From Nanobdellota archaeon (GTDB lineage Archaea; Nanobdellota; Nanobdellia; Pacearchaeales; GW2011-AR1): 64,000 bases of DNA. Location: assembly GCA_013329055.1 (NCBI GenBank), contig DUKY01000016.1, positions 16,851 to 80,850 of the forward strand, given 5' to 3'. The notes below the pieces were generated by a model, which saw only the letters and a program-made list of their open reading frames with translations, was not told the DNA's origin and made no database searches. The position numbers and the translations under genes were made by a program. This document shows, piece after piece, positions 5,517-47,095 of the stretch (the stretch's first letter is position 1; every line of letters starts with the position of its first letter).

Positions 5517-5690
5517 ATAAGTTTAAGAGATTGATTATTTTTAAAACTATTTATTTATAATTTAAAATTAACTAATTTTTACAAGATCTTAACCAAAATT
5601 TATAAACAAGAAACGCCAAGTTTTATTAAAGATGGAATAATTCAAAATCAAACTGTGCCTTCGCACAGAAAACTATTAAAGATTTTGAAT

Positions 5691-5839
5691 ACAAAGAAAA
5701 TCTTGGAAAAAATTTTCTAGCATTTCCATTTCAGGAGAAATGAAAATACAAAGAAAATCTTGGAAAAAATTTTCTAGCATTTCCATTTCAGGAGAAATGA
5801 AAATACAAAGAAAATCCATAAAAAAGGAGAAATGAAAAT
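5691..5839. repeat. 57-bp tandem repeat (2 complete copies plus partial) containing two small inverted repeats
   Basis: 'acaaagaaaatcttggaaaaaattttctagcatttccatttcaggagaaatgaaaat' at 5691 and 5748, partial from 5805. Confidence 0.9.
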
Positions 5840-6613
5840 ATGAATAAAAGAGGGCAAATGACTATATTTTTAATTATTGGGATAATCCTTATTGCTATTG
5901 CAATAATTTTATTTTTTTTGAACAAACAAGATATTTTAAATCCAAATCAAATAGAGGTAGATAAAAAAGAATTTTTACAGACATGCATTGAAGAACGAAT
6001 TACAGAAACAGTTAATTTAATTGCAATACAAGGCGGATCAATTAATCCAACTTTAAAGAAAACATATGATTTAGAAGATGGACTTGGAAAGAAAAATATT
6101 TCAATATTATGTTATAATCAAAATTTTTACACGCCATGCATTAATCAGGAACCAATGCTGGTTAATCATGTTAGAGAGGAAATTGAAAAAAATATTAGTC
6201 AAGATGTTAAACAATGTTTTGATGATTTGGTTATAAGTTTAAATAAAAAAGGATTTGAAACAAGTGCATTATACAAGGGTTTTGAAATTAAATTACAACC
6301 TGATAAAGTTATTTTAGAGATTTATGGAGAGATTACAACTACCAGAACAGATGAAACTAAAAAGGAAAAAGATTTTGAAATTATAGTTAAAAGCAAGTTC
6401 TATAATTTAATAATTGTTGCTCAAGAAATACTCAGCCAAGAAGCAAGATTCTGTCATTTTGAAAATCTTGGTTATATGTTATTTTATAAAAATTTTAATA
6501 TTGATAAATTCAAAACAGGAGATTTTTATACATTTTATACTGTAGAAGACAGAGACAGCCAAGAAAAATTCAGGTTTGCAATAAGGGGGTGTGCAATTCC
6601 TCCGGGAATATAA
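5840..6613 (+). CDS. small protein with N-terminal 'KRGQMTIF' TM anchor (copy 1 of triplicated operon)
   Basis: 'MNKRGQMTIFLIIGIILIAIAIILFFL'; paralogous to 11306-12103 and 16617-17411 (shared 'E..LQTCIEE', 'LCYNQNFYTPCINQEPML', 'GCAIPPGI'). Confidence 0.75.
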   Translation: MNKRGQMTIFLIIGIILIAIAIILFFLNKQDILNPNQIEVDKKEFLQTCIEERITETVNLIAIQGGSINPTLKKTYDLEDGLGKKNISILCYNQNFYTPCINQEPMLVNHVREEIEKNISQDVKQCFDDLVISLNKKGFETSALYKGFEIKLQPDKVILEIYGEITTTRTDETKKEKDFEIIVKSKFYNLIIVAQEILSQEARFCHFENLGYMLFYKNFNIDKFKTGDFYTFYTVEDRDSQEKFRFAIRGCAIPPGI

Positions 6614-6617
6614 AGAG

Positions 6618-9600
6618 ATGGTAAAACATAATCAAAAAATTAATTTAATGTTAATTGTATTTTTTCAAATAATTTTAATATTAAATATGACTTTTGCAGA
6701 AAGTTATTTTTTACATCAAGCAGACCAAATAACAGAGAATATAATTAGTGATAAAAATGACAAAGATTTATCGGATTTAATTTCAAAATTTTTAATTGAT
6801 TTTTTAATTATAAAACAAATTGGAACAGTTTCTGCAATTGGCTGGAGTTGTTGCCCTGAAACAATTATAGGTGCAAAATGCCAAGAACTTGCAAGTGTTG
6901 ATACTGAAAGCTGTGCTGTTGAGATGATTCCTTCTAAATGTGAAGAATTTTCAGATTGCCAACTTGGTTGCTGTGTTGATGAAATTGAAGGGCTTTGCAG
7001 TACAAAAACTCCTAAATCAATTTGTAAAAGGGATAATGGTACTTGGAGTGAAGATGAAAATTGCTTGATTCAAGAATGCCAAAAAGGATGCTGTATGTTA
7101 GGGGAAGAAGCTTCATTTGTTACTGAAACCAGATGTGAACAGCTTTCGGATATCTCCGGAACACAAAAAGATTTCCGAGATATAAATAATGAAGTGGATT
7201 GTCTTATGCAAAAAGTAAGTTCTAAGTTAGGAGCCTGTGTATTGGATTTTGAACCAATAATGAATCGTACTAATAAAACTAATTCATCTATTACAGGAGC
7301 AATAATCTCTAATTCAACAAATAATAGAACAAGCACAAATTTTACTGATGATGAAACTTGCAGGATTGTTACAGAAAGCGAATGCTACGAAATGGGGGGA
7401 ACATTTGCCGGGGGTTATTTATGTTCACACCCTGATTTAAATACCGGATGCAAAAGACAAACAACAATTAATTGTGTTGATTCAAGTGATGAAATTTTCT
7501 GGTTTGATTCTTGCGGTAATAAAGAAAACATTTATTCTTCAGACAGGGATGCTTCATGGAATGGAGGGATGATGATGAGTAAAGAAAAAAGTTGCAATCC
7601 AGATGTATCAAATGCAAATTCAAAGGATTGTGGGAATTGCAATTATTTTTTAGGAAGTATTTGTCAAGAGAGTAAAAACCCTAAGGTAAAAGATGGAAAT
7701 TTTATCTGCAAAGATATGGATTGCATTGATGAAGATGGAACTAAAAGAAAAAACGGAGAGAGCTGGTGCATATATGATTCTTATATTGGAGACGGAAAAG
7801 ATACTGTTGGAAGCAGACACTGGAAAAGAATGTGCATTGATGGAGAGATAAAAGTAGAACCTTGTGCAGATTATAGAGGAGAAATTTGTGTTCAGGCAAA
7901 AAATGAAGAAGGCGAATCGTTTTCATATGCAGCATGTGTTGTGAATGAAGCACTTGCATGTATTTTAGAGTATAATTCTTTAGAAACAGAAGAAGAACGG
8001 GATGCAAAGTGTTTAGAGAATAAAGATTGCATGATTAAAGAAGTTAAAGTGAGTAAAGACTTTACTTATGATATCTGTACTTCGAGATATCCTAAAGGAT
8101 TTGATTTAGTAGAAACTGAAAAGGGTAAAACTCAAGAGAGATTATGTGATATCGGTTCACAAAATTGCACAGTTTTATTAAAGAAAGGTTGGTTTAAAAG
8201 TGATTATACTTGTGAAAAAAATTGTGAATGCAAAACTAAATTATTTACTCAACAATTAAATGATGTTTGTATTTCCCTTGGAGACTGCGGTTCTTATATT
8301 AATTTTGTAGGAGACGGGAGCGATAATATTATTGTTAAAAATACTGAAAAGATTTCTTGGAGAGATTATATCGGTTTTGCTGAACCTGTAAAAGGTCAAT
8401 TTGCTGAACCAAAAAAGAATCGAGGACCAATGGGAGGAGAATCTAATGGAACAGACAGAAAAAGCAATGTTAAAGGGGATGATTTAAGTGGTCTTGATAT
8501 GCTTGGAACTATTGCTGGGGGTCTTGGGACATTAGTGGGAGGGGCACAATATTTATATGGGGGAGAGATACTTTATGCTTCAGGATATGGTTTTTTTGCT
8601 GCAGAGGGAGCTAGTGCAGGAGTTGGAGTTACACCAGTATTTGCTTCTTTTGGAGCAGCAGCAGCAGGTTTTGCAATTGGTTCAATAATTGGTTCTTATT
8701 GGGCTAAATCAATTGGAGCTACTAAAGAAACTGCAATGATTATGGCAATTTCCGGAGGGGTTGCAGGAGCTGCAATAGGTTATGCTTTAGTACAAGCATC
8801 AATTTCTACTTTCAACATTTATGTTATTGTTATAGCAATAATTATTATGATAATTGCTGCACTTTTTGGACCTAGATATAAAACTGAAAAAGTTACTTTC
8901 AAATGCCAGCAATGGTCTGCACCTACAGGAGGAGAAAATTGTGAAAAATGCAATGAAGACCCATTAAAACCATGTTCGGCATATAGATGCAGTTCACTTG
9001 GACAAGCTTGTCAACTTATGGAAAATGATACTAAAAACCCGATTTGCATTGGAAGTGATGATGATGGTAAACCCCCGATTATATTTCCATTAAATACATC
9101 AGAAGGATATAAATTCTTTGAGAAAACAAATGATGGAGTAAAGATACGAACAGATAATCAAAAATGCATTCCTGAATTTACAATGTTTGATTTTTCTTTA
9201 GGAACTGATGAACTTGCTCAATGTAAGTATAGTTTTGAAAAAACAAAAGATTATGAAGAGATGACTGAAACATTCTTGGAATCAAATTCATATTCAATGA
9301 ATCATTCAACATCGTTTATGATGCCAAGTATTCAAAGTTTAGAAAATGATATTAATGACACAGAAATTACTGTTATTCAAGATTTAAAGGAAACATATGC
9401 TAAATTAAATTTATATGTTCGTTGCCAAGATGTATATGGTAATAAAAATGTTAGAGAATATATTGTTAATCTTTGCATTAATGACGGACCTGATTTAACT
9501 GCTCCATACATTAAACAGATGGATCCAAAAAATGGAGGCAACATTAAATTTAATTCTACACAAGCACAAATTACTGCTTATGTTAATGAACCTGCAGATT

Positions 9601-10628
9601 GTAAATATGATACCATCCCGAAAAAAGCATATGAACAAATGAATAACTCGATGCAATGCAATACTCAATTAGATGGTTCTGGTTTATATGGCTGGCCATG
9701 TCAGGCGACATTTAGTAATTTAAAACCTGGTGCAAATAAATTTTATCTAAAATGCAAAGACCAGCCTTGGTTAAATGAATCAAATACTTCAAGAAATGCT
9801 AATACAGAAGATTATATTTATACTTTAAATGTTGCTGAAAAAAAGTTTAATATTTCTTCTATTTCTCCTCAGGGTATAATTAAAAATGGTTTTGCTCCTT
9901 CACAGGTTAATTTAGAAGTTCAAACAATTGGCGGGGTAGAAAATGGCAAGGGAACATGCGAATATAGTTTTACACAAAATGGTGAATATTATCAATTCTT
10001 TTCTACATTTAGTGCCAAACATAAACAAACATTTGAATTAATGGGAGGAAATTATACTATTTATGTTAAATGCGAAGATGAAACAAATGATCAAGATAGC
10101 AGAATATCACAATTTGATTTACAGATTGATTCAACACCTCCGGTTGTAATAAATTATACTGAAGGAGAAAAAATTGAATTTTATACTGATGAAGATGCTG
10201 AATGTTATTATCATCCTTCTAAATGTAATTTTGATTTTGAAAATGGCACTTTAATCAGTACTAAATTTACAACAGAACATCAAATTACATTTGACCCTAG
10301 CATAACATATCATATTAAATGCACAGATGTGTGGAAAAATACTAATCCTGATTGTGCAATTATTTTGAATGCTCCGGATTTAGACCTTCCAATGATTGTC
10401 AGGGCTTATAATTCAAATTCTGAATTGAAGATTATGACTGATAAGATTTCTAAATGTTATTATGATTTTGAAACTTGTTTATTTAATCCGGTTAATGCTC
10501 CGTCTATGACTGCAGATTTGACAAAAGAGCATACAGTTAATTGGATTCCCGGAAAAGTTTATCATATTAAGTGTGCAGATGCCTGGGGCAATTTTCCAAT
10601 TGATTGCACACGAAAAATTTCGATGTAA
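6618..10628 (+). CDS. giant Cys-rich secreted surface protein, copy 1 (ORF track starts at 6591; ATG 6618 is a better start)
   Basis: signal/TM N-terminus; many Cys pairs (SCCPET, QLGCCVDE, QKGCCMLG); aligns along its length with 12105-15944 except in a central region. Confidence 0.8.
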   Translation: MVKHNQKINLMLIVFFQIILILNMTFAESYFLHQADQITENIISDKNDKDLSDLISKFLIDFLIIKQIGTVSAIGWSCCPETIIGAKCQELASVDTESCAVEMIPSKCEEFSDCQLGCCVDEIEGLCSTKTPKSICKRDNGTWSEDENCLIQECQKGCCMLGEEASFVTETRCEQLSDISGTQKDFRDINNEVDCLMQKVSSKLGACVLDFEPIMNRTNKTNSSITGAIISNSTNNRTSTNFTDDETCRIVTESECYEMGGTFAGGYLCSHPDLNTGCKRQTTINCVDSSDEIFWFDSCGNKENIYSSDRDASWNGGMMMSKEKSCNPDVSNANSKDCGNCNYFLGSICQESKNPKVKDGNFICKDMDCIDEDGTKRKNGESWCIYDSYIGDGKDTVGSRHWKRMCIDGEIKVEPCADYRGEICVQAKNEEGESFSYAACVVNEALACILEYNSLETEEERDAKCLENKDCMIKEVKVSKDFTYDICTSRYPKGFDLVETEKGKTQERLCDIGSQNCTVLLKKGWFKSDYTCEKNCECKTKLFTQQLNDVCISLGDCGSYINFVGDGSDNIIVKNTEKISWRDYIGFAEPVKGQFAEPKKNRGPMGGESNGTDRKSNVKGDDLSGLDMLGTIAGGLGTLVGGAQYLYGGEILYASGYGFFAAEGASAGVGVTPVFASFGAAAAGFAIGSIIGSYWAKSIGATKETAMIMAISGGVAGAAIGYALVQASISTFNIYVIVIAIIIMIIAALFGPRYKTEKVTFKCQQWSAPTGGENCEKCNEDPLKPCSAYRCSSLGQACQLMENDTKNPICIGSDDDGKPPIIFPLNTSEGYKFFEKTNDGVKIRTDNQKCIPEFTMFDFSLGTDELAQCKYSFEKTKDYEEMTETFLESNSYSMNHSTSFMMPSIQSLENDINDTEITVIQDLKETYAKLNLYVRCQDVYGNKNVREYIVNLCINDGPDLTAPYIKQMDPKNGGNIKFNSTQAQITAYVNEPADCKYDTIPKKAYEQMNNSMQCNTQLDGSGLYGWPCQATFSNLKPGANKFYLKCKDQPWLNESNTSRNANTEDYIYTLNVAEKKFNISSISPQGIIKNGFAPSQVNLEVQTIGGVENGKGTCEYSFTQNGEYYQFFSTFSAKHKQTFELMGGNYTIYVKCEDETNDQDSRISQFDLQIDSTPPVVINYTEGEKIEFYTDEDAECYYHPSKCNFDFENGTLISTKFTTEHQITFDPSITYHIKCTDVWKNTNPDCAIILNAPDLDLPMIVRAYNSNSELKIMTDKISKCYYDFETCLFNPVNAPSMTADLTKEHTVNWIPGKVYHIKCADAWGNFPIDCTRKISM

Positions 10629-10652
10629 CGTAGAATTTCGAAATTTTTCGTG
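10609..10652 (+). terminator. palindrome spanning the stop codon
   Basis: CACGAAAAATTTCG...CGAAATTTTTCGTG; equivalent at 15925-15966 in the paralog. Confidence 0.5.
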
Positions 10653-11270
10653 CCACTAAATCACCAAACGCCTTGCCTACGCAAGGAAAAAAACAAGATT
10701 TAGTTTGCATGAAAAATCTCGATGTAAAGAATGAAGTGCCACTAAATCACCAAACGCCTTGCCTACGCAAGGAAAAAAACAAGATTTAGTTTGCATGAAA
10801 AATCTCGATGTAAAGAATGAAGTGCCACTAAACCCCCCGCTGTGTCTACACACAGAAAACTATTAAGGATTTAGTTGGCACGCAAAATTTCAATGTAAAG
10901 AATGAAGTGACACTAAATCACCTACGCCTTGCCTAAAGCAAGGAAAAAAACAAGATTTAGTTTGCATGAAAAATTCCAATGTAAAGAATGAAGTGACACT
11001 AAACCCCCCGCTGTGCCTTCAACAAGAATCAAAGATTCTCGAGCATGACAACTTCACGAAACAACAAGAAGTTGTCATACGCACAGAAAAATATTAAAGA
11101 TTTAGTCGGTGCTAAAGATTCAAAGAATCTTGGTTCCACTAAATCCTGCTGTGTCTACACACAGAAACTATTAAGGATTTAGTCGGCATGAAAAATTTCG
11201 ATGTAAAGAATGAAGTGCCACTAAATCACCAACGCCTTGCCTAAAGCAAGGAAAAAAACAAGATTAAACC
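10650..11270. repeat. array of ~86-bp hairpin-rich repeat units with two alternating inner hairpins and nested insertions
   Basis: units begin at 10650, 10736, 10822, 10907, 10993; outer stem CACTAAATC...GATTTAGT; inner stem CCTTGCctacGCAAGG or CTGTGtctaCACAG. Confidence 0.9.
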
Positions 11271-11305
11271 CAAAAGGTAATAAATAACAAAAATTTAAAA
11301 TTAAT

Positions 11306-12103
11306 GTGAAAAAAGAGATGAGTTTTGATAAAAGAGGACAGATGACGATGTTTATTGTAATTGCGATTTTAATTATTAGCGGAATTGCACTACTAATATT
11401 TTTTAATAAAGGGACTCCATTAATCGGAAGTCATCAGGAAATTAATAAAAAAGAATTTTTAGAAAGTTGTGTTGAAGAAGAGGTCAAAAATACATTAGAA
11501 ATAATTGGTTTACAAGGAGGATATTTTAGCGAGAGCAAAATAATGACTAAGCCATTTAGTTCAGGAAGTACATATGGACAAAAAAACATTGCAGTTTTAT
11601 GTTATAATAAAAATTATTTTGATCCTTGCATTAATCAGGATCCTATGTTAATTCAGCATTTAAATGATGAAATTAAATTGGGGATTTCTAAAACTGTTAA
11701 AGATTGTTTTGATGCTTTAACATTAAGTTTGGAAAATCAAGGATTTGAGGTACAAGCAAAATATAATGGGTTTGATGTCCAATTATTGCCTGAAAAATTA
11801 AAATTAGATATTAAGGGGGAAATTACAATAAGTCAAACAGGATCTACAACAAAAGAAAAAGATTTTGAAATTCTTTTTAGAACCAGATTATATGATATCG
11901 CAATAGTTGCCCAGAATATTATTAATCAGGAAGCTTCAACATGTTCATTTGACCATTCAGGGTTCATGTTATATTTTAAAGAATTTAGTATTGATAAAAT
12001 AAGAACTTCAGATTCATTTGATATATTTGCAGTTAAATCTAAAGATAGTTATGAAATATTTAATTTTGCATTAAGAGGATGTGTAATTCCTCCGGGAGTA
12101 TAA
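11306..12103 (+). CDS. small protein with N-terminal 'KRGQMTMF' TM anchor (copy 2); GTG start
   Basis: paralog of 5840-6613. Confidence 0.75.
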   Translation: MKKEMSFDKRGQMTMFIVIAILIISGIALLIFFNKGTPLIGSHQEINKKEFLESCVEEEVKNTLEIIGLQGGYFSESKIMTKPFSSGSTYGQKNIAVLCYNKNYFDPCINQDPMLIQHLNDEIKLGISKTVKDCFDALTLSLENQGFEVQAKYNGFDVQLLPEKLKLDIKGEITISQTGSTTKEKDFEILFRTRLYDIAIVAQNIINQEASTCSFDHSGFMLYFKEFSIDKIRTSDSFDIFAVKSKDSYEIFNFALRGCVIPPGV

Positions 12104-12104
12104 A

Positions 12105-15100
12105 ATGGATAATAAAATTAAATTCAAATTAGGACTAATTGTTTTCTTAATTGGATTTTTAATTATGAACAACATTTATGCTTTGGATATTAATTGCTGT
12201 CCAAAAATGATTGATAAATCCATATGCCAAGAAATCCTTGATACAGATACATCAACATGTTCTGTATCTCCACTTCCGGTTAGATGTGAAGAGTTTTCGG
12301 ATTGCCAATTAGGATGTTGCATTGATAAAACTGAAGGTCTTTGCACAACTCAAGCTCCAAGATCAGCCTGTGAAGATAATAATGGAACTTGGGAAGATGA
12401 TGCATCATGTTCTATTTCAGAATGTCAAAAAGGTTGTTGTGTAATTCAGGAGAATAGTTTATTTGTAACTGACCAAAGATGCGACCAGCTTTCAAATATT
12501 TCAGGAGTTGAAAAAGATTTTAGAGAAGTACAAACAGAGATGCAATGTCTGATGTTAAAAGGAAGCGGTGACAAAGGTGCTTGTGTTTTTGGATTTGTAC
12601 CACGTATTAATGAAACTAATAATACAAAAAATAATTCCAAAACTATTAAACCTTATACTTCTAATAATACTATTAATAATTCTAATTCTACGAATAATAC
12701 AAATTCGTCTATCACAGGTTACCTTGTTTCAAATAATTCAAGAATGCCCAGAGAATCAAATGAATCAGAAGAAGATAATGGTGCTTGCAGGATTACAACT
12801 GAATCTGAATGTTATGACATGGGGGGAATGTTTGCTAATAGCTATTTATGTTCTCACCCTGATTTAAATACCGGATGTAAAAGACAGACAAGTATTGATT
12901 GTTCTGATACAAGTGATGAAATTTTTTGGTTTGATTCCTGCGGGAATAAAGAGAACATTTATTCTTCAAATAAAGATGCTTCGTGGAATGGCGGGATGAT
13001 GATGAGCAAAGAACAAAGTTGTGGAGCAGGTTCTTCAAATGCTAATTCACAAGATTGCGGTAACTGTAATTATATTTTGGGAAGTATTTGTGCTGAAAGT
13101 GAAAACCCTAAAGTTAAAGACGGAGATTTTATCTGCAAAGATATGAATTGTGTTGAGAAAGATGGGACCAAAAGACAAAATGGTGAAAGCTGGTGTGTAT
13201 ATGATTCTTATATTGGCGACGGAAAAGATACTGTTGGAAGCAGACACTGGAAAAGACTCTGCACTGATGGGGAGATAGATGTTGAACCTTGTGCAGATTA
13301 TAGAGCAGAACTTTGTGCACAAAAAGTAACAGAAGTTGAAATGCCTGAAGGGGGAAAAAAATCACTTACTGTTGCTAAGTGTGTTATTAATGAAGGGTTA
13401 AATTGCATCTTTGATTATAATGACCCCAAGGATGCTGAAAAAACTGCAAAATGTTTGAAGAATACTGATTGTATGATTAATCATGTTTATGTAAGTGAAT
13501 ACTTTCAATTTGATTTTTGCACTGCAAGGTATCCAAAAGGATTTGAATTAAAAAATGAAGATGATAAAGAAGACAGGGGGGTTAAACAAAAAGCATTATG
13601 CTCAATGAGTTCACAAAATTGCACAGTTATCTATGAAAAAAAGAGAAAAGGAATGTTTGGCAGTAAATGGGTGTGTGTTGCTAACTGTGAATGCCAAACA
13701 GATGCATTTATCGCAGAAATGAATGATCTTTGCATCTCTATGGGAGATTGCGGAACTTACATTAATTATATTGGAGAAGGAACAAAGAATATTGGTTTAG
13801 TGAATAACCCTGGAGATGTTGCTTGGGAAGCATACAAACATTTTGCAGAACCAGTTAAGGGTCAATTTGTTGCACCAAAAGAATTTAGAGGTCCACAAGG
13901 AGAGGCTGGAGGAGAAGAGGAGATTAATACTTATAGACATAAATATACTAATGGTTATAGCGGAGAAGTTAATATTTGGGGAACTAATCCGGATGATGGA
14001 TGGATTGCTAATTGGAACGGGCATGTTGAGATAAAATGGCTTTCAAAAACTTTTGGAATGGATGATTATGATGCTTATATGTGGTCGCAATTAACAACAG
14101 TAATTATTAAAAAAGAACTTTTGGGAGTTTATGAAACTGGTAGTTATGGAATTCCTTCAATTGTATGGGTGATTATTGATTGGATACAGGGAATTGGAAA
14201 AACTAAAAAAGTAATTGTTGAATTTCATTGTAATCCTTGGAAAGCTCCGTTAGGAGGGATAAATTGTGAAAAATGCAATGGTGATTTATTAAAACCTTGT
14301 TCAAAATATAGATGTGATTCTTTAGGGCAAGCGTGTATGTTATCAAATTTAAGTGTTGAATTTCCACTTTGTTTATCTGCAGATGCTAATGACGGTAAAC
14401 CGCCAGTTATTTCTCCACTTAATGTTTCTAAAGGTTACAAATTCATGGAAGAAACAGCAAATGGAGTAAAGATTAGAACTGAAGATGGAAAATGCATACC
14501 GGAGTTTACTACTGTTAAATTTTCTTTGAAAACAGATAAATTTGCTCAATGCAAATACAGTTTAAATAGAACTAAAGATTATACAGATATGGATTTATCT
14601 TTTGCAGAAACAACTGCTTTTACGAAAAATCATACAACCTCTTTTATGATGCCTAGTTATGATAGTTTAATTAATGAACTCGATCCTGAGGTAGAATTTA
14701 GTCGGGATAAATTTGCAAATTTCGATATGTTTGTCAGATGTCAAGATGGATATGGCAATGTGAATAAAGTTGAATATGTTGTTAATCTTTGTGTTAATGA
14801 TGGACCGGATAAAACTGCTCCGTGGATAACAAGAGTTATTCCGGAAAATGGGAAAACTTTAAGATTTAATACTACAAGTAGTCCAGTTACAGTCTATGTA
14901 AATGAACCTGCAAATTGCAGATATGATACAATTGCAAATAAAAAATATGAAAATATGACTTATAACATGACATGCCAAACTGAACTTTCACAGGTAAGTC
15001 TTGGTGGCTGGCCTTGTTCTGCAAATCTTACTAATTTAAGTTTAGGAAATAATAATTTTTATTTTAAATGCAAAGATCAGCCTTGGTTACCGGAAGATAA

Positions 15101-15944
15101 TGAAACAAGGAATGTTAATTCAGAAGATTATGTTTATTCGTTGTATGTTTCAGAACATAAATTTAATATTAGTTCAATTTCTCCTCAGGATATAATCAAA
15201 AACGGATTTGAGCCTGCTCCTGTAACATTAAAAGCTCAAACTTTTGGGGGAGTAGATTCAGGAAAAGGTACATGTGAATATAGTTTTGCACAAAACGGAA
15301 GTTATTATCAATTCCTTAAAACATTTGGATATACTCATACGCAAGTATTTGATTTAATGGGAGGAAATTATACTATTTATGTTAAATGCCATGATGAATC
15401 AGACGACGAAGCTTATGGAACTGCAAATTTTGAATTACAAATTGATACAACTCCGCCAGTTATAATTAATTATTCTGAGGATGGAAAAATTGAACTTTAT
15501 ACAGATGAAAAAGCTGAATGCTTTTATCATCCGACTAAATGCAACTTTGATATTGATAATGCTACTTCGATGACTGTTGGTTTTTCACAAGAACATTTTG
15601 CAAATTGGGACCCAGGTATTACTTATCATGTTAAATGTGCAGATGTTTGGGGTAATACTAATCCAGATTGTGCAGTTATTTTGAATTCTCCGGATTTAGA
15701 ACTTCCAATTATTACCAGAGCATATAATGCGGGCAATTCATTAAATATTATTACTAGTGAAATTGCTAAATGTTATTATGATTTTGAAACGTGTTATTTT
15801 AAACCGGAAAATGCTCCATCTATGACTCCGGATTTAGAAACAGAACATACAGTTAATTGGATTCCTGGAAAGGTTTATCATATTAAATGTGCTGATGCAT
15901 GGGGCAATTATCCTATGGATTGCTCACGAAAAATTTCGATGTAG
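12105..15944 (+). CDS. giant Cys-rich secreted surface protein, copy 2
   Basis: signal peptide; extensive similarity to 6618-10628. Confidence 0.8.
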   Translation: MDNKIKFKLGLIVFLIGFLIMNNIYALDINCCPKMIDKSICQEILDTDTSTCSVSPLPVRCEEFSDCQLGCCIDKTEGLCTTQAPRSACEDNNGTWEDDASCSISECQKGCCVIQENSLFVTDQRCDQLSNISGVEKDFREVQTEMQCLMLKGSGDKGACVFGFVPRINETNNTKNNSKTIKPYTSNNTINNSNSTNNTNSSITGYLVSNNSRMPRESNESEEDNGACRITTESECYDMGGMFANSYLCSHPDLNTGCKRQTSIDCSDTSDEIFWFDSCGNKENIYSSNKDASWNGGMMMSKEQSCGAGSSNANSQDCGNCNYILGSICAESENPKVKDGDFICKDMNCVEKDGTKRQNGESWCVYDSYIGDGKDTVGSRHWKRLCTDGEIDVEPCADYRAELCAQKVTEVEMPEGGKKSLTVAKCVINEGLNCIFDYNDPKDAEKTAKCLKNTDCMINHVYVSEYFQFDFCTARYPKGFELKNEDDKEDRGVKQKALCSMSSQNCTVIYEKKRKGMFGSKWVCVANCECQTDAFIAEMNDLCISMGDCGTYINYIGEGTKNIGLVNNPGDVAWEAYKHFAEPVKGQFVAPKEFRGPQGEAGGEEEINTYRHKYTNGYSGEVNIWGTNPDDGWIANWNGHVEIKWLSKTFGMDDYDAYMWSQLTTVIIKKELLGVYETGSYGIPSIVWVIIDWIQGIGKTKKVIVEFHCNPWKAPLGGINCEKCNGDLLKPCSKYRCDSLGQACMLSNLSVEFPLCLSADANDGKPPVISPLNVSKGYKFMEETANGVKIRTEDGKCIPEFTTVKFSLKTDKFAQCKYSLNRTKDYTDMDLSFAETTAFTKNHTTSFMMPSYDSLINELDPEVEFSRDKFANFDMFVRCQDGYGNVNKVEYVVNLCVNDGPDKTAPWITRVIPENGKTLRFNTTSSPVTVYVNEPANCRYDTIANKKYENMTYNMTCQTELSQVSLGGWPCSANLTNLSLGNNNFYFKCKDQPWLPEDNETRNVNSEDYVYSLYVSEHKFNISSISPQDIIKNGFEPAPVTLKAQTFGGVDSGKGTCEYSFAQNGSYYQFLKTFGYTHTQVFDLMGGNYTIYVKCHDESDDEAYGTANFELQIDTTPPVIINYSEDGKIELYTDEKAECFYHPTKCNFDIDNATSMTVGFSQEHFANWDPGITYHVKCADVWGNTNPDCAVILNSPDLELPIITRAYNAGNSLNIITSEIAKCYYDFETCYFKPENAPSMTPDLETEHTVNWIPGKVYHIKCADAWGNYPMDCSRKISM

Positions 15945-16605
15945 GGAAATTTCGAAATTTTTCGTGCAACTAAACCCCCCACTGTCCTTCAACGAGAATC
16001 AAAGATTCTCGAGCATGACAACTTCACGAAACAACAAGAAGTTGTCATACGCACAGAAAAATATTAAAGATTTAGTTGGCATGAAAAATTTCAATGTAAA
16101 GAATAAAATGCCACTAAATCACCAAACCTTAAGCAAGATTTAGTTTGCATGAAAAATTTTAATGTAAGTTTAGAAAAACTAAATCAACCAACGCCTTGCC
16201 TACAATGAGAATCAAAGATTCTCAAGCATGACAACTTCGCGAAACAACAAGAAGTTGTCATACGCAAGGATTAAAACAAGATTTAGTTGGCATGAAAAAT
16301 TCCAATGTAAAGAATGAAGTACAACTAAATCACCAAACGCCTTGCCTACGCAAGGATTAAAACAAGATTTAGTTTGCATGAAAAATTCCAATGTAAAGCG
16401 AAAGTTTAGTGCCACTAAACCCCCGCTGTGCCTTCAACGAGAATCAAAGATTCTCGAGCATGACAACTTCATGAAACAACAAGAAGTTGTCATACGCACA
16501 GAAAAATATTAAAGATTTAGTCGGTGCTAAAGATTCAAAAAATCTTGGCACAACTAAATCACCAAACCTTAAGCAAGATTTAGTTTGCATGAAAAATTCC
16601 AAGAG
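15925..16605. repeat. second palindromic repeat array, same family as 10650-11270
   Basis: same outer stems, inner hairpins and nested hairpin-pair insertions (around 15981-16059, 16194-16269, 16426-16501). Confidence 0.9.
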
Positions 16606-16616
16606 TAAATTTCAAT

Positions 16617-17411
16617 TTGGTTAACTATATAAATAATAAATTACATAAAATAAATATGAAAAGGGGACAGGTTACATTATTTATAATCATGGGTATGATG
16701 ATTATTATATTAGGTATTTTATTATTCCTTTTTTCTCCAAAAATACAAGATCTTTTCTTAACTGAAACAAAAAATCCTTCTTCGTTTATTCAGGATTGCA
16801 TTGAAGAAGATATCAGTTTAGCAGTTAATGTATTATCTTTAAATGGGGGAAGCATTAATCCTGAACATTATTTTGTTTATGATGGTTCAAGATTAGAATA
16901 TTTGTGTTATATCGAGGGATTTTATCAAACTTGTGTTGTTCAGCAACCTATGTTAAAGAGACATATTGAGATGGAAATTGAAAAAGCAATTACTCAAAAA
17001 TCTGAAGAATGTTTTGCGGATTTAAAAGAAAGTTATGAAAGGAAAGGTTATCAAGTAAGTTTATCTAAAGGAGAGATTGATGTTGAACTTTTGCCTCAAA
17101 AAATTGTTACGACTTTTAATAATTCTTTAACTTTGACTAAAGAATCAACAGAAAGTTATAAATCAGTAAGAGTTGTAATAAATAATAATCTTTATGAATT
17201 GGTAAGTATTGCTAATAGTATTATAGATTGGGAATCAAAATACGGAGATTCTGAAACAACAGTTTATATGAATCTTTATCATGATTTAAAGGTTGAAAAG
17301 AAAGTACATTCCGAGGGTACAACGGTTTATGTTTTAACAGATAGAGATAATTTAAATAAATTCCAATTTGCTTCAAGAAGTGTGGCATGGCCACCAGGAT
17401 ATGGATTTTAA
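16617..17411 (+). CDS. small protein with N-terminal 'KRGQVTLF' TM anchor (copy 3)
   Basis: paralog of 5840-6613 and 11306-12103. Confidence 0.7.
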   Translation: MVNYINNKLHKINMKRGQVTLFIIMGMMIIILGILLFLFSPKIQDLFLTETKNPSSFIQDCIEEDISLAVNVLSLNGGSINPEHYFVYDGSRLEYLCYIEGFYQTCVVQQPMLKRHIEMEIEKAITQKSEECFADLKESYERKGYQVSLSKGEIDVELLPQKIVTTFNNSLTLTKESTESYKSVRVVINNNLYELVSIANSIIDWESKYGDSETTVYMNLYHDLKVEKKVHSEGTTVYVLTDRDNLNKFQFASRSVAWPPGYGF

Positions 17412-20848: not shown

Positions 20849-22030
20849 ATGTTAATTGGTCTTGTTGGCAAGCCTTCTGTGGGAAAGAGTACTTTTTTTA
20901 AAGCGGCAACTTTGGCAGAGGTTGAAATTGCTTCTTATCCTTTTACTACAATTAAGGCAAATCATGGTGTTGGTTATGTTAAAGTTGATTGCATTGAGAA
21001 GGAATTTCACACAAAATGCAACCCAAACAAAGGTTTTTGCATTAATCAAAATAGATTTGTTCCTATTGATTTAATGGATGTTGCGGGTTTAGTTCCCGGG
21101 GCTTCAGAAGGGAAGGGTTTAGGAAATCAATTTTTAAATGATTTAAGGGATGCTAATGCTTTTATTCATATTGTTGATTCTTCCGGAACAACAGATACTG
21201 AAGGTAAACCGACTAAAGATCATGACCCTTGCAAGGATATTATATTTTTGGAAGATGAGTTAAATAAATGGTATTATAATATTTTAATTAAGGCTTGGAG
21301 AACTTTTGCCAGAAAAGCTGAGATGCAAGATATTAGTTTTAGCGAAGCGATTGTAAAACAATTTTCCGGCTTGAAGGTTACTGAAAATCAGGTTAAAGAT
21401 GTTTTATTGAAAGCTAAATTACCGGAAAAACCTACAAATTGGTCTGATGAAGATTTAATGACTTTTTCCGCGAGATTAAGAGAAGTTAGTAAGCCTATGA
21501 TTTTGGCGGCAAATAAGTGTGATTCAGATAAGTCTAAAGAAAATATTGAGAAAATGAGAAAAACTTTTCCAAATATACTGATTTATCCTTGTTCTGCGGA
21601 TTCAGAACTTGCGTTAAGGCAGGCAGCTAAAGCAGAGATTATTGAGTATATACCTGGTGAAAGTCATTTTAAGATTAAGAAAGAATTAAATCCTAAGCAA
21701 TCTGAAGCTCTTAACAGGATTCAGGAAGATGTTCTAAATGTTTATGGGGGTACAGGAGTTCAGGAGATTCTTAATAAAGTTGTTTTTGATTTGTTGGATT
21801 ATTTGGCTATTTTTCCTGCTTCTGCAAATAAGCTTGGAGATAGCAAAGGGAACATACTGCCTGATTGTTTTTTGTTAAAAAATGGTTCTACTGCATTAGA
21901 TTTTGCTTATTATTTACATACTGATTTTGGAAAAAATTTTATTAAGGCGATTGATGCAAAGACTAAGCAGATAAAAGGTAAAGAGTATAAGTTAAAGAAT
22001 CGAGATGCACTAGAGATTATCACAAGATAA
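20849..22030 (+). CDS. ychF: redox-regulated ATPase / translation-associated GTPase, YchF family (archaeal type)
   Basis: 'GLVGKPSVGKSTFFKAATLA', 'DVAGLVPGASEGKGLGNQFLNDLRDANAFIHIVD', 'NKCD'. Confidence 0.92.
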   Translation: MLIGLVGKPSVGKSTFFKAATLAEVEIASYPFTTIKANHGVGYVKVDCIEKEFHTKCNPNKGFCINQNRFVPIDLMDVAGLVPGASEGKGLGNQFLNDLRDANAFIHIVDSSGTTDTEGKPTKDHDPCKDIIFLEDELNKWYYNILIKAWRTFARKAEMQDISFSEAIVKQFSGLKVTENQVKDVLLKAKLPEKPTNWSDEDLMTFSARLREVSKPMILAANKCDSDKSKENIEKMRKTFPNILIYPCSADSELALRQAAKAEIIEYIPGESHFKIKKELNPKQSEALNRIQEDVLNVYGGTGVQEILNKVVFDLLDYLAIFPASANKLGDSKGNILPDCFLLKNGSTALDFAYYLHTDFGKNFIKAIDAKTKQIKGKEYKLKNRDALEIITR

Positions 22031-22124
22031 TCTCTGTGCCACTAAACCCCAACTGCTGTGCCTACGCACAGAAAGTACCAAAGGTTTAGTTGACACTAGA
22101 GATCATCACAAGATAATTTCTGTG
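22007..22124. repeat. palindromic element after ychF flanked by direct copies of the ychF 3' end
   Basis: gcactagagattatcacaagataatctctgtg (22007-22038) and gacactagagatcatcacaagataatttctgtg (22092-22124) flank ccactaaacc..ctgtgcctacgcacag..ggtttagttg. Confidence 0.85.
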
Positions 22125-25363: not shown

Positions 25364-25482
25364 AAACAATGATAGATAAAAAAAGAATCACTAAAAATTT
25401 GCAAGCAAATTTTGGTGCCACTAAATCCCCAACGAGGGTAAAGGATTTAGTTGGTGAGGAAATTCGGAGGGAATTAGTATGA
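25337..25482. repeat. direct duplication of CDS 3' end flanking a palindromic element
   Basis: gaggagattaggagggaattaggatga (25337) and gaggaaattcggagggaattagtatga (25456); between them gtgccactaaatcc...ggatttagttggtg and aaatttgcaagcaaatttt. Confidence 0.85.
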
Positions 25483-27877: not shown

Positions 27878-30800
27878 ATGAAATATAAAAAGGTTTTGGT
27901 TGATATGAAAAATAAATTATTAATTCTAACTTTAGTTGCTTTGACAATTATAGGGGTTGTTATCGCACAAAACCAAAGTTTAGAGGAAGAATTAGCAAGT
28001 CTTGAAGAAGAGTTAGTTAATGCAGGATTTGACTGGTTAGTCAATGCAACGATTGATGAAAACTTAGATACTTCAACCATTGAAGTTTTCACCCAAAATG
28101 GAAATGAAACTCTTGCAGTATTTGAAAACATTCAAGAAGAAAAATTTTACAAAATTTATTTAACTAATTTAAACGGAACACAGGATGTTTTTGATTTAAG
28201 GATTAATGGAAGTATTGAATTTGACCAGATTTTGGACCCCGCTCCAACAATGTCAACAGTTAAAATAAACTCCACAACAAACGCATCAAACGAAAATCTT
28301 AAAGGATATTGTAATGCAACAGATGCTGATGGAGATGATTTAGCATATCAATATCAGTGGTATAATGGTTCAACTGTTTATTTGAATGGAACTTTGTTTA
28401 AGGAAGGAACGATTTCTACAGGAAATCTTCACACTTGTGGGATTAGAGCAAATGATTCAAGAGTATTATGCTGGGGGGAAGGAGCCAATGGAAGATTAGG
28501 AGATGAAGGGACTGGAGATAATACCGTTCCAAATATTACGACAGATAATTCTCCCTATTCAAGTGTGAGTGCGGGATATCAACACACTTGTGGTATTAGA
28601 CAAAATGATTCAAGAGTTTTATGTTGGGGATATGGTGATTTTGGGCAACTTGGAGATGGAAATTCTACAAGCCATAATGTTTTAAACCCAAATTTAACTA
28701 CAGATTCATCTGCCTATTCAAGTGTAAGTGCAGGATATATACACACCTGTGGAATTCGAGCAAATGATTCAAGAGTTTTATGCTGGGGATATGGTGGTTC
28801 TGGAAGATTGGGAGATGGAGATTCTACAAGTCATAATGTTTCAAACCCGAATTTAACTACAGATTCATCGGCTTATTTAAGTGTTAGTTCAGGAATTTCT
28901 TCTCATACTTGTGGTATTCGAGCTAATGACTCAAGAGTTTTATGTTGGGGAGATTCAGGATCTGGAAAACTTGGAGATGGACAAGCTTCAACAGATAGAA
29001 CTTCACCTTATCCCACGACAGATAATTCTTCTTATTCAAGTGTAAGTGCAGGATATTCACACACTTGTGGAATTAGAACTAATGATTCGAGAATTTTATG
29101 TTGGGGGCAAGGAGATTATGGACAGCTTGGAGATGGTAGTACTTCTGCACATTACAGTTCTGATCCAAATGTCACTACTGATTCTTCTGCTTATGCAAAT
29201 ATAAATGCAGGAGATTACCATACTTGTGGTATTAGAGCTAATGATTCGAGAGTTTTATGTTGGGGAACTGGAGATGATGGGCAAGTTGGTGATGGAACAA
29301 GTACTGAGAGAACAAATCCAACCCTTACATCAGATACATCTGCTTACTCAAGTATAAGTGCTGGAGGAGACAATGCTCTTGGCAGGAGTCATACATGTGG
29401 TATTCGAGCTAGTGATGGAAGAGTTTTATGCTGGGGGGATGGAGGTTATTATCAAACAGGAGATGGAGGGACTACAGATAATACTGTACCGACTCTTACA
29501 TCAGACAGTTCACCTTATAAAAAAGGATTTTCTTCAGGCGAAGAAATCCTAATTTCAATCTTAGGAAATTCTTTTTTAAATAAAAATAATATCTGGAAAT
29601 TGAGTTGCAGAGCTTATGATTTTACAGAATATTCATCTTGGATGAATAGTTCAACTGTTACTATTTCTGATGGTCGTTCTCCAATAATGGTCATAAATTC
29701 TCCGCAAAATATTACTTACACAACATCAACAATAATATTTAATATAACTGCTACAGATGAAAGTGGTGTTGGTGTTTGCAAATATTCTTTAGATGGAGCA
29801 ACCAATAAATCAATGACAAACATTACTGCAAGTCAATGGAATGCAACAAATTCGTCTATGACAAATCAAACTCATACTGTAAAATTCTATTGCAATGATT
29901 CTTTAGGAAATATGGGCGACACTCAAACTATATTTAGGATTAATAATAATCCGATAGTTCAAACAGCAACAATAAACTCAACAACAAATAAATCAAATGA
30001 AAGCATAAAAGGATATTGCAATGCAACTGATACAGATGGCGATGATTTGATTTACCAATATCAATGGTATAATGGTTCAACAGTTTATTATAACGGAACT
30101 TTGTTTAAGGAAGATAGTATTTCTGCTAGTTTTGAATATACTTGTGGTATTCGAGCAAGTGACTCAAGAGTTTTATGTTGGGGAGAAGGATCATACGGAA
30201 GACAGGGTGATGGAAGTACTACAGATAATTTAGTACCAACCCTAACCTCAGACATATCCCCCTACATAAGTGTAAGTACAGGATATCAACATACTTGCGG
30301 TATTAGAGTTAATGATTCAAGAGTTTTATGCTGGGGAGAATCTTTATATGGAAGATTAGGTGATGGACAAAATGGAGTAGATGTTTTGAACCCAAATTTA
30401 ACTACAGATAATTCTTCTTACATAAGTGTAAGTGCTGGATACTATTTCTCTTGTGGAATACGAGCTAATGATTCAAGAGTTTTATGTTGGGGAGATTCAT
30501 TATATGGACAATTAGGAGACGGACAAACCACTTTTGATATGAATACATCAACTTTAACAACAGATACTTCAGCTTATTCAAGCATCAGTGCAGGATATCA
30601 ACATACTTGCGGTATTAGAGTTAATGACTCAAGAGTATTATGTTGGGGAGAAACTGCAAATGGAAGAGTTGGTGATGGACAAACAACCACAGACAGAACT
30701 TCACCATATCAAACCACAGATTCATCTGCCTATTCAAGTGTAAGTGCTGGAAGTTTGCATACTTGTGGGATTAGAGCAAATGATTCAAGAGTTTTATGTT

Positions 30801-33800
30801 GGGGGGAATCTTTATATGGAAGATTAGGAGATGGACAAAATGGAGTAGATGTTTTAAATCCAAATCTTACAACAGATTCTTCTGCTTATACAAGTATAAG
30901 TGCAGGAATGAGACATACTTGTGGAATTAGAACTAATGATTCAAGAATTTTATGTTGGGGAGAAGGAGAATATGGAAGACTTGGGGATGGAAATAATTCT
31001 ATACATAATGTAGTAAGTCCAAATATTACTACTGATTCTTCTGTCTATTCAAGTGTAAGTGCAGGAGATTACCATACTTGCGGTATTCGGGCAAGTGATG
31101 GGAGAGTATTATGTTGGGGACAATCTGATTATTATCAACTCGGAGATGGACAAAATACTTTAGACAGAAATGAATCAACTTTAACAACAGACACTTCTGC
31201 CTACAAAAAAGGTTTTGGTTCTGGTAATGAAACTTTAGTTTCAATTTTAGGAAATGCTTTTATTAAAAAAGGCGAAATATGGAAAATGGGTTGCCGAGCT
31301 TATGATTTTAATGGTTATTCCTCTTGGATGAATAGTTCAACTATTACTATTTTAAGTGGTCCACCAACAATGGCAACTGTTAAAATAAACTCAACGACAA
31401 GTACTACTTCAGATAATATTAATGGTTACTGTAATGCAACAGACAAAGACGGCGACGATTTAGCATACCAATATCAATGGTATAACGGCTCAACTGTTTA
31501 TTTTAACGGAACGATTTTCAAGGATGGAAGTATTTCTACTGGATACTATTTCTCTTGTGGAATTCGAGCGAATGATTCAAGAGTTTTATGTTGGGGACAG
31601 GGATTATACGGACAACTTGGAGATGGGCAAAATACTATTAATAGAACTTCCCCTTATCTGACAACAGATATATCTTCTTACAAAATGATAAGTGCAGGAT
31701 ATTATCATACTTGTGGTATTAGAGCTAATGATTCAAGAGTATTATGTTGGGGAGAAACAGCAAACGGAAGGGTTGGTGATGGGCAAACCACTACAGATAG
31801 AACTTCACCATATCAAACCACAGACACATCAGCTTATTCAAGTATAAGTGCAGGACTATTGCATACTTGTGGTATAAGAACTAATGATTCAAGAGTATTA
31901 TGTTGGGGAGAATCTTTATATGGAAGATTAGGTGATGGACAAAATGGTGTAGATGTTTTAAATCCAAATGTTACTACAGATAATTCTTCTTATTTTAGTG
32001 TAAGTGCAGGAGGGTATCATTCTTGTGGAATTCGAGCAAATGATTCAAGGGTTTTATGCTGGGGATATGGACTTTATGGACAAGTAGGAAATAGTGGAAC
32101 AACAGACAATCTGATTCCAAACGTTACCACAGATACATCTTCTTACAAAAGTGCAAGTGCAGGATATTATCATACCTGTGGTATTAGAAATAATGATTCA
32201 AGAGTTTTATGCTGGGGAAGGGGAGATTGGGGAAATTTAGGGGATAGTGAAATAACAAACAATTTGGTTCCAAATTTAACAACAGACACATCTCCTTATA
32301 CTATTGCAAATGCAGGATATGTACATACATGCGGAATTAGAACAAATGACTCGCGAGTATTATGCTGGGGATATGGAGCTAATGGACAAGTAGGAGATGG
32401 AGAAACAACAAACAATCTTGTTCCAAATATTACCACAGATTCATCTATTTATTCAAGTGTAAGTCCAGGAGGTTATCATACTTGCGGAATTCGAGCAAAT
32501 GATTCAAGAGTTCTTTGTTGGGGATATGGGACATACGGGCAACTTGGTGATGGTAATAATGCTTCACATAGTGTTTTACGTCCAAATATCACTACAAGCT
32601 CATCACCTTACAAAAAAAGTTTTTCATCCAGCGAAGAAATCTTAGTCTCAATTTTAGGAAATGCATATCTAAATGTCGGTGAAAATTGGTCATTAGGTTG
32701 CAGATCTTATGATTTTACAGACTATTCATCTTGGATGAATAGTTCAATCTTAACAATTAATTTCCCCCCAGTTATTCAAACAGTTAAAATAAACTCAACA
32801 ACAAACAAATCAAATGAAAATATAAAAGGATATTGCAATGCAACAGACACAGATGGGAATGATTTAATTTATAATTATACTTGGTATAATGGCTCTACTG
32901 CTTATATCAACGGGACTTTGTTTAAAGAAGGAACTATTTCAGCAGGATATGGGCATTCTTGTGGTATTAGAGCTAATGACTCAAGAGTTTTATGTTGGGG
33001 AGAAGGATCAAATGGAAGACAAGGAGATGGACAAGTAACAGATAATTTAATCCCAACTTTAACTACAGATATCTCTGCCTATTCAAGTGTAAGTGCTGGT
33101 GGATATTTTCATACTTGTGGTATTCGAGCAAATGACTCAAGAGTTTTATGTTGGGGAGATTCGGCATATGGACAAATCGGAGATGGGCAAATCACCACTG
33201 ATAGAACTTCACCATATCAAACCACAGACACATCGGCTTATTCAAGTATAAGTGCAGGAGATTTTCATACTTGTGGTATTCGAGCAAATGACTCAAGAGT
33301 TTTATGCTGGGGAGAATCTGCAAATGGAAGATTAGGAAATGGACAAACCACACCAGATCAATCTAATCCAAATGTTACAACAGACACATCTGCCTATTCA
33401 AGCATTAGTGCAGGAGAACAACATACTTGCGGAATTCGGGCAAATGACTCACGAGTATTATGTTGGGGAGATTCGGCATATGGACAATTAGGAGATGGAC
33501 AAATTACTACTGACAGAACTTCACCGTATTTAACAACAGATTCTTCTGCCTATTCAAGTATAAGTGCAGGGGGTATTCATACTTGTGGTATTAGAACTAA
33601 TGATTCAAGAGTACTATGTTGGGGAGAATCTTTGGATGGTAGATTATGGGATGGGCAAGATGGGGTAAATGTTTTAAATCCAAATTTAACTACTGATTCA
33701 TCTGCTTATACAAGTATAAGTGCTGGAGGGTATCATACTTGCGGGATTCGACAAAGTGACTCAAGAGTTTTATGCTGGGGATATTCGGCTTATGGAGCAT

Positions 33801-46539: not shown

Positions 46540-47095
46540 GAGAATTGATTTTTAGAGAATTCTTTAAAAAATCAATTCTCTAAGAAGACATTTGAACCAA
46601 CGGAAATTGAGGAAAATTATTTATTCAAATGTCTCTATACAGAATTGTGGGGGATTACAATTCTCTAAGAAGACATTTGAACCAACGGAAATTGAGGAAA
46701 ACTATTTATTCAAATGTCTCTAATGGAACTGCTGGGGCATTTAATGTTGATCCAAATAATGCTGGGGGTCCTTTACTTAATACTACTTCTGGTTTAGAGA
46801 TTCATTGATATGAATCTCTAATAATCTTTTTGAAGGCAAGCAAAGCTTGCATGAGATTAAACAAAAAGATGATAATGTTACAATTACTTCTGCAGGTGGA
46901 AGTGTGATTATAAGATTAGGTTAATGATGTTACAATTACTTCTGCTTACTCGCAACTTCGCACAGTGGAAGTGTGATATAGAGATTCATTGATATGAATC
47001 TCTAATAATCTTTTTGAACAACGGCACAGCAAAGCTTGCATGAGATTAAACAAAAAGATCATTATTAGATGGGGTTAATTATTTAAATTTGAATT
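46540..47095. repeat. decaying duplications of the fibre-gene 3' end interleaved with palindromic elements
   Basis: 'ggcatttaatgtt.atcca.ataatgctgg.ggtcctttacttaatactacttctgg' and 'gttacaattacttctgc.ggtggaagtgt.att' repeated; palindromes at 46795-46820, 46824-46870, 46979-47004, 47008-47059. Confidence 0.85.

Follow-up and report, generated by a model that had tools for sequence, protein, structure and literature searches.

Nested palindromes in a Nanobdellota genome as members of a hitherto undescribed family of tiny hairpin elements from DPANN archaea

Small palindromic repeats have usually been described in bacteria, and their mobility has mostly been linked to known transposases. BOX elements are composed of modules, and Rickettsia palindromic elements insert in coding genes; like the locus described here, both consist of modular or palindromic repeats that lie within genes or close to them, whereas the present element has another sequence, belongs to another clade and is nested with other modules. 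The locus lies in a 64,000-nucleotide stretch of DNA (the window; G000:C15:16851-80850, on contig DUKY01000016.1 of assembly GCA_013329055.1) from a Nanobdellota archaeon, the genome of which, G000, measures 1.19 Mb and is 85% complete; statements on this genome are based on searches and selected stretches. Its palindromes within palindromes are members of a family of tiny hairpin elements of DPANN archaea that had not been described before, and no description was found in the literature on palindromes and hairpins of Pacearchaeota and Woesearchaeota or on nested palindromes. We hold it to be probable, with moderate confidence, that these are non-autonomous, target-templated, palindromic insertion elements of Pacearchaeota/Woesearchaeota-type archaea, which in the window have become secondarily nested and array-forming.

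Miniature inverted-repeat transposable elements (MITEs; PMC10969869) are likewise very small, non-coding, palindromic and dispersed, with direct target repeats at their flanks. Unlike MITEs, the present elements have no fixed terminal inverted repeats: only a core of ~24 nt is common to the copies, and the arms beside it (T' and T, defined below) match the local target. Further differences are the length of the direct repeats (9–30 nt), a preference for start codons, and the failure to find a transposase when Y1 transposases and reverse transcriptases were searched for in G000. Short imperfect hairpins with a mismatch, and intergenic arrays, are shared with repetitive extragenic palindromes and bacterial interspersed mosaic elements (REP/BIME), with REP-associated tyrosine transposases (RAYT) and with IS200/IS605. 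Two other systems bear on the interpretation: archaeal bulge–helix–bulge (BHB) tRNA introns (reviewed in PMC4090602) and bacterial leaders in which a short leader open reading frame (ORF) is translationally coupled to the gene, such as the upstream ORF (uORF) leader in PMC8092293.

Type II units nested in Type I palindromes

The nested copies are found in two arrays of palindromes built from Type I units. In each unit an outer stem (CCACTAAATC..GATTTAGTTGG) encloses linkers and an inner hairpin, which is either CCTTGC-CTAC-GCAAGG or CTGTGY-CTWC-RCACAG. The first hairpin of array 1 holds the stop codon of a surface-type gene of 1345 amino acids (6591-10628), and the first hairpin of array 2 that of the surface-type gene 12105-15944. 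In four of the inner hairpins (11011-11086, 15982-16056, 16194-16269 and 16426-16501), the CTWC loop holds a near-identical 60-bp insert, termed Type II, which consists of the hairpins P3 (GAGAATC aaa GATTCTC) and P4 (ATGACAACTTC..GAAGTTGTCAT). The arrays and their filled and empty units are as follows.

10609..11270 (+): palindrome array 1, Type I units with ~28-nt spacers (CATGAAAAATYTCGATGTAAAGAATGAAGTG)
15925..16605 (+): palindrome array 2, organised like array 1, 3' of gene 12105-15944
10993..11112 (+): filled Type I unit, Type II insert at 11021-11080
15964..16083 (+): filled Type I unit, Type II insert at 15991-16050
16175..16293 (+): filled Type I unit of the CCTTGC backbone, Type II insert of 60 bp at 16204-16263, flanks matching the empty unit 16319-16379
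16409..16527 (+): filled Type I unit, Type II insert at 16436-16495
10650..10711 (+): empty Type I unit, CCTTGC-CTAC-GCAAGG; a second one at 10736-10797
10822..10882 (+): empty Type I unit, CTGTGT-CTAC-ACACAG; a second one at 11132-11189
16319..16379 (+): empty Type I unit with GGATTAAAACAAG linker, counterpart of the filled unit 16175-16293

A first-pass annotation of the window had described these nested palindromes, and its hairpin coordinates proved right to within 3 nt. The outer stem that it gave, GTGCCACTAAATC..GATTTAGTTGGCAC, is present with one additional base on the 3' arm, and the insertion in the loop that it reported is confirmed at a length of 60 bp rather than ~57 bp (16194 compared with 10671 and 16340). 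The components are strongly over-represented: GATTTAGT was counted 28 times against 4 expected, the Type I inner hairpin gave 6 matches (3 sites, both strands) against 0.00 expected, the P4 arm was observed 8 times against 0.3 expected, and the Type II core 4 times against 0 in shuffles. When folded as single-stranded RNA, the filled units reached z scores of -2.7 to -7.0 relative to dinucleotide shuffles, with weak outer levels in two of the four; the outer stem is missing from the centroid of the least stable copy, and in the copy at 15964 a deletion breaks the inner host hairpin.

Both kinds of inner hairpin occur filled and empty. The CCTTGC backbone is filled at 16194 and empty at 10671, 10757 and 16340, the GGATTAAAACAAG linker being common to the filled unit at 16194 and the empty one at 16340. 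Filled hairpins with the CTGTGY backbone lie at 11011, 15982 and 16426; the empty ones read CTGTGT-CTAC-ACACAG at 10840 and 11149 and, outside the arrays, CTGTGC-CTAC-GCACAG at 22056, and a further empty inner hairpin, CTGTGC-CTTC-GCACAG, lies at 5653. Because the two backbones differ in stem and linkers, a single insertion with tandem duplication alone is insufficient to account for the filled units; they can be explained by two insertions, or by a single one combined with gene conversion.

These patterns bear on a possible, though less probable, local history, compatible with a mobile family elsewhere, in which a single nested unit gave rise to the four inserts through tandem duplication and gene conversion, without independent insertion into loops. 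In its favour, the inserts hardly differ in sequence, the arrays have a tandem layout and the genes next to them seem to be paralogues. A DNA search also recovered the nested unit in a second genus (genome G021), at 88% and 80% identity and with a compensatory change in its outer stem (CTAAAT/ATTTAG to CGAAAT/ATTTCG), so the composite hosted by CTGTGC is old. Against such a history stand the two backbones, each of which occurs in both states and which differ as far as the borders of the insert, and the insertion of the core elsewhere, where empty sites are clean.

At the locus L048 of the second genus (G021:C31:48501-51578), the homologue of the window's surface-type protein of 1279 amino acids seems to be split into two genes, and the nested unit lies at the split point.

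Family distribution and the anatomy of gene-start copies

The first-pass annotation would have given up independent insertion had the hairpins occurred only at this locus and always together; instead, the family is spread over other genomes. A covariance model of the three-way Type II unit (E<=0.1) matched 42 of the 181 genomes of the family; these represent 27 of its 87 genera. A strict core pattern was matched 41 times, in 15 of 180 family genomes, and never when reversed, and among 85,462 species genomes it was confined to DPANN-type records, namely Pacearchaeota, Woesearchaeota, Nanoarchaeota or otherwise unnamed DPANN/archaeal metagenome-assembled genomes (MAGs). The core was absent from IMG/VR, and a viral origin was rejected on that ground. 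The Type I inner hairpin CTGTGCCTWCGCACAG was found 16 times (nine in G000, five in G021 and two in G154) against 0 in the control; the arms around it vary at most sites yet pair.

Covariation was assessed on 33 distinct hits, in an alignment that leans towards the model: 93.4% of pair cells were standard, compared with 67% after shuffling and at most 52% with slid partners, and 22 of 24 pairs had changed on both sides. In 11 of 30 sequences one column of P4 fails to pair, so that a mismatch recurs close to the base of this hairpin. Searches of Rfam with 19 loci (E<=0.5) returned no match besides tRNA, and positions 10000-17000 of the window gave only a sub-threshold snoRNA hit located outside the arrays; a known structured RNA or riboswitch was set aside, no Rfam family other than tRNA having matched.

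The three-way unit is also carried by a ~180-bp composite that is dispersed between unrelated flanks (L058 and L134 in G058; L062, L138 and L139 in G059). Its sequence is 94% identical between two places in G058 and holds a second nested palindrome, CCTCCAACT..AGTTGGAGG; two of the G059 copies have identical flanks and may represent a duplicated contig region. In four leaders of G154 (L066, L137, L160 and L127), a hairpin with GGYCCCTGATARTTGA is followed directly by the Type II core, before unrelated genes.

For the analysis of gene context, 56 Type II copies with perfect stems were catalogued. Thirty lie in sense orientation within 75 nt of the ATG of a long ORF, and one in antisense; the copy-to-ATG distances cluster at 22–39 nt, and for positions drawn at random from these loci the share is 13%. 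The genes, named by eye from their protein sequences, include rrp41, herA, iscS, gyrA, hjc and those of RNase HI, ribosomal protein L3 (rpl3), a Cdc48-type ATPase, an EF-2-like protein and a Lon-like protease. The constant part of these copies is a hairpin core of ~24 nt, CAAY-[7–8 bp stem, usually with a triloop]-RAGC. Reading 5' to 3', a leader consists of T1, C-AAY-P3-RAGC, T', a spacer with a Shine–Dalgarno (SD) sequence, and T2. T2 repeats the 9–30 nt just 5' of the insertion point and T' is an imperfect reverse complement of T1, so that T1:T' and T':T2 are each able to form a hairpin.

In permutations with other copies as controls (40 copies), the similarity of T1 to its own downstream region, of T1 to its own T' and of T' to its own T2 was significant in each case (p<=5e-5). 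This test is stronger than that of RNA-duplex energies against single-sequence shuffles, which gave weak results (p<=0.05 in 15 of 56 copies for T1:T' and 25 of 56 for T':T2). Direct target-site duplication, as in MITEs, is thus present in the comparison of T1 with its own downstream sequence, clear in about half of the 40 copies, and is accompanied by empty sites.

Counted from the A of an old ATG, the insertion point lies mostly 6–8 nt downstream, and in some copies as far as ~15 nt, following ATGCCAAA, ATGACATA or ATGGAAGA. The old ATG opens a short uORF that runs through the core. Among 23 copies, two of them probably orthologues, the uORF stop falls within -8..+4 of the main start in 12, compared with 2 of 46 other frames (p=9e-6); most of these stops form an ATGA overlap or lie 4–5 nt before the main start. 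This bias in position suggests selection for translational coupling of the gene to the leader ORF. In the RNase HI genes of G021 and G004 there is no AUG at the SD-proximal start, and the simplest reading is an AUU start codon overlapping the UAA stop of the leader ORF. Bacterial leader-ORF systems are similar in having a short leader ORF, the SD and start in a hairpin and a stop overlapping or adjoining the main start, but here one ~24-nt core precedes dozens of unrelated genes and has seemingly been inserted there.

A conserved leader peptide was rejected: different copies read the core in all three frames, so peptide conservation is not the constraint. The copies also differ from Rickettsia palindromic elements, since they lie at start regions and not in-frame inside ORFs, the frame of the old ATG typically stopping before or at the new start.

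Empty sites, a tRNA intron and the origin of the family

Orthologous sites were compared for three genes. The rrp41 gene is interrupted in G058 between ATGACATA and CACAAAAAG, and 16 congeners are without the insert, most of them with an upstream stop codon near or abutting ATGNCATACACAAAA. In G058 the rpl3 gene carries the insert after ATGCCAAA, and in G067 it does so at another point, before the ATG; other congeners are mostly without the core, and G057 has a core-like hairpin upstream. The hjc gene is filled in G059 and G066, with no core in most of the remaining congeners; the automatic core flag also marked two doubtful sequences. Taken together, the filled and empty patterns of these genes favour independent gains. 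As the first-pass annotation had proposed, very small templated palindromic elements therefore appear to have inserted more than once, as seen in the two backbones that are filled and empty, the copies in other genera and the empty orthologous sites.

Upstream of rpl3, many congeners of G058 carry the motif TTTTGATARCA-hairpin-AGGYTCAGAAA (L253, L255, L259-L261, L264-L266 and L269), which may be a structured ribosomal-protein leader.

A serious rival, in our judgement rather doubtful, is that the family is not mobile and constitutes a conserved cis-regulatory RNA, a translational switch whose copies arose by selection and vertical descent. P3 and the alternative T1:T' and T':T2 hairpins would mask or unmask the SD and the start codon, and the resemblance of T1 to T2 would stem solely from the need of both to pair with T'. 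The strong covariation, the sense orientation at a fixed distance to the ATG and the uORF coupling are all consistent with a switch, as is the presence of copies at the same gene in two genera, both for RNase HI and for a large gene starting MNTEKYF/MDTNEYF. However, the leaders precede very many unrelated housekeeping genes, which leaves no single ligand logic. Their presence is patchy: congeners have clean empty sites, and rpl3 has two insertion points. Copies also occur in tandem, in 3' arrays and as a tRNA intron.

That intron is found in the tRNA-Gly(GCC) genes of G028 and G200 (genus g29), where ARAGORN places an intron of 58/59 nt at position 37/38; an Rfam tRNA match runs across it in L060. 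The intron begins ACAATGAGAATC..GATTCTCAAGC and aligns well with mRNA leader units of G201 and G021, and tRNA-Gly is intronless in the congener G199 and in several other genera. By inspection, the precursor can form a TTGC:GTRA helix flanked by the 3-nt bulges CAA and AAA. In genus g29, a Type II homologue thus probably serves as an anticodon-loop intron that is removed by splicing. Another tRNA-Gly(GCC) intron, in G068 (L168), is P3-like with a perfect TTGC:GCAA helix, by inspection again a putative BHB. The tRNA-Gly(GCC) gene of G135 (L217) has an 80-nt intron of different sequence.

The canonical 37/38 position of the unit in G028 and G200 is shared with archaeal BHB introns, and reverse splicing together with reverse transcription could have carried such introns from tRNA into the leaders of mRNAs, an origin that we consider highly improbable. 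The helix and bulges described above agree with it, and taking the segment from the core to T2 out of the mRNA restores the ancestral start in rrp41 and rpl3. In the mRNA copies inspected, however, T2 directly repeats T1, so the exon/intron ends are not complementary and form no BHB, and these copies have their own SD and ATG; the array copies likewise form no BHB, and the start codon is kept without splicing. Splicing of mRNA copies was rejected by inspection, the rrp41 and rpl3 leaders being without a BHB, and no reverse transcriptase was found in G000.

An origin as REP- or IS200/IS605-like elements, moved by a Y1 (RAYT/TnpA) transposase that recognises hairpins, deserves very little weight. 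The recurrent mismatch near the hairpin base would fit such an enzyme, and Y1 genes are common in the family (73 of 180 genomes), but they show no association with the element (19 of 42 element-positive and 54 of 138 element-negative genomes) and none was detected in G000. IS200/605 insertion is not known to duplicate or to invert its target, nor to yield direct plus inverted copies of it. The Y1/RAYT enzyme that the first-pass annotation had proposed to search for was accordingly rejected as the mobiliser, and a reverse transcriptase was rejected because it is absent from G000. Integron attC sites were likewise rejected, by inspection and with no search for an integrase: the Type I foot GTTGGCA or GTTTGCA does not fit GTTRRRY of the R''/R' core sites RYYYAAC/GTTRRRY. 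Bypassing elements ('byps') were another candidate, for which a literature search yielded no usable comparison.

For the target-templated insertion elements that we favour, the following course of events is proposed. Insertion would leave T1, core, T', spacer and T2 at the target, usually just inside a gene start and a few nucleotides after the ancestral ATG. The SD and ATG copied into the second hairpin would re-make the gene start, and the uORF would tend to end exactly on it, so that the gene would become translationally coupled to the leader ORF. Fold-back or template-switch copying at the insertion point could produce T' and T2 in one event; this step says nothing on the origin of the core. 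In the window, whole Type II units would have been placed into the CTWC loop of Type I palindromes arrayed where two surface-protein genes end. The T arms there find no counterpart in the hairpin that hosts them, and the whole unit therefore appears to have moved with a ready-made P4. In genus g29, a homologous unit would have been placed in the anticodon loop of tRNA-Gly as an intron. The hairpin-loop targeting put forward in the first-pass annotation thus holds for the window arrays and the anticodon loop and finds no support as a general rule, most copies lying a few nucleotides after a start codon.

Several observations weigh against target-templated mobility. The T1/T2 duplication is unclear in the other half of the 40 copies, some of which may accordingly be old or purely vertical, and in the four nested window copies the T1/T2 repeat is no longer than AC/TAC. 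RNase HI carries the element at matching positions in two genera (L112 in G021 and L100 in G004), suggesting retention, and the core sequence is conserved between genera, as a decaying transposon would not need. No mobilising enzyme was identified: searches for Y1 transposase (PF01797) and reverse transcriptase in the 85%-complete G000 detected neither, other transposase families not having been searched. All genomes compared are MAGs, and the catalogue, which required perfect stems, is a biased sample that includes a few spurious members.

More tentatively, the family may amount to a new class of mobile element, with a constant part of only ~24 nt and the rest copied in direct and inverted form from the target. 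Such an element would seek start codons, rewrite starts into coupled leader ORFs, and be able to become a tRNA intron or to nest in palindromes. As far as searched, the family is limited to DPANN-type archaea and combines a minimal core with target-derived arms, a strong preference for starts and signs of selection for leader-ORF coupling. Two questions become testable through it: the source of new archaeal tRNA introns, and how fast-evolving reduced genomes gain translational control elements.

Further palindromes in the window

The window holds additional palindromes, including a leader copy (5640-5839) and a Type I copy with a 31-bp direct repeat (22039-22093) that had escaped the first-pass annotation.

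5640..5690 (+): leader Type I unit, inner hairpin AAACTGTGCCTTCGCACAGAAAACTATTAAA, differing arms ATTCAAAATC/GATTTTGAAT
5692..5839 (+): two tandem Type II units, cores 5693-5721 and 5750-5778, T' ATTTCCATTTC, AGGAG, T AAATGAAAATA
16109..16151 (+): minimal outer palindrome with ACCAAACCTTAAGCAAG as its core and lacking an inner hairpin; again at 16547-16591
22008..22124 (+): Type I unit (22039-22093) between 31-bp near-identical direct repeats CACTAGAGATYATCACAAGATAATYTCTGTG (22008-22038 and 22094-22124)
25389..25453 (+): hairpin and minimal outer palindrome CCACTAAATCC..GGATTTAGTTG, without inner hairpin

The tandem Type II pair lies directly 5' of gene 5840-6613, and the first CACTAGAGATYATCACAAGATAATYTCTGTG copy spans the stop codon of a YGR210-like GTPase gene (20849-22030). 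Elsewhere in G000 (L235; G000:C11, 108.3k and 108.6k), further intergenic hairpin chains, among them CAGAGAATCAAAGATTCTCTG and AACTTCAGGGAACCTGAAGT, flank Type I copies and are repeated 275 bp apart. A near-identical hairpin, TAGAGATTCATTGATATGAATCTCTA, occurs twice in the window, at 46794-46821 and 46979-47004, ~185 bp apart. A single ORF of 4475 amino acids occupies 27878-41305.

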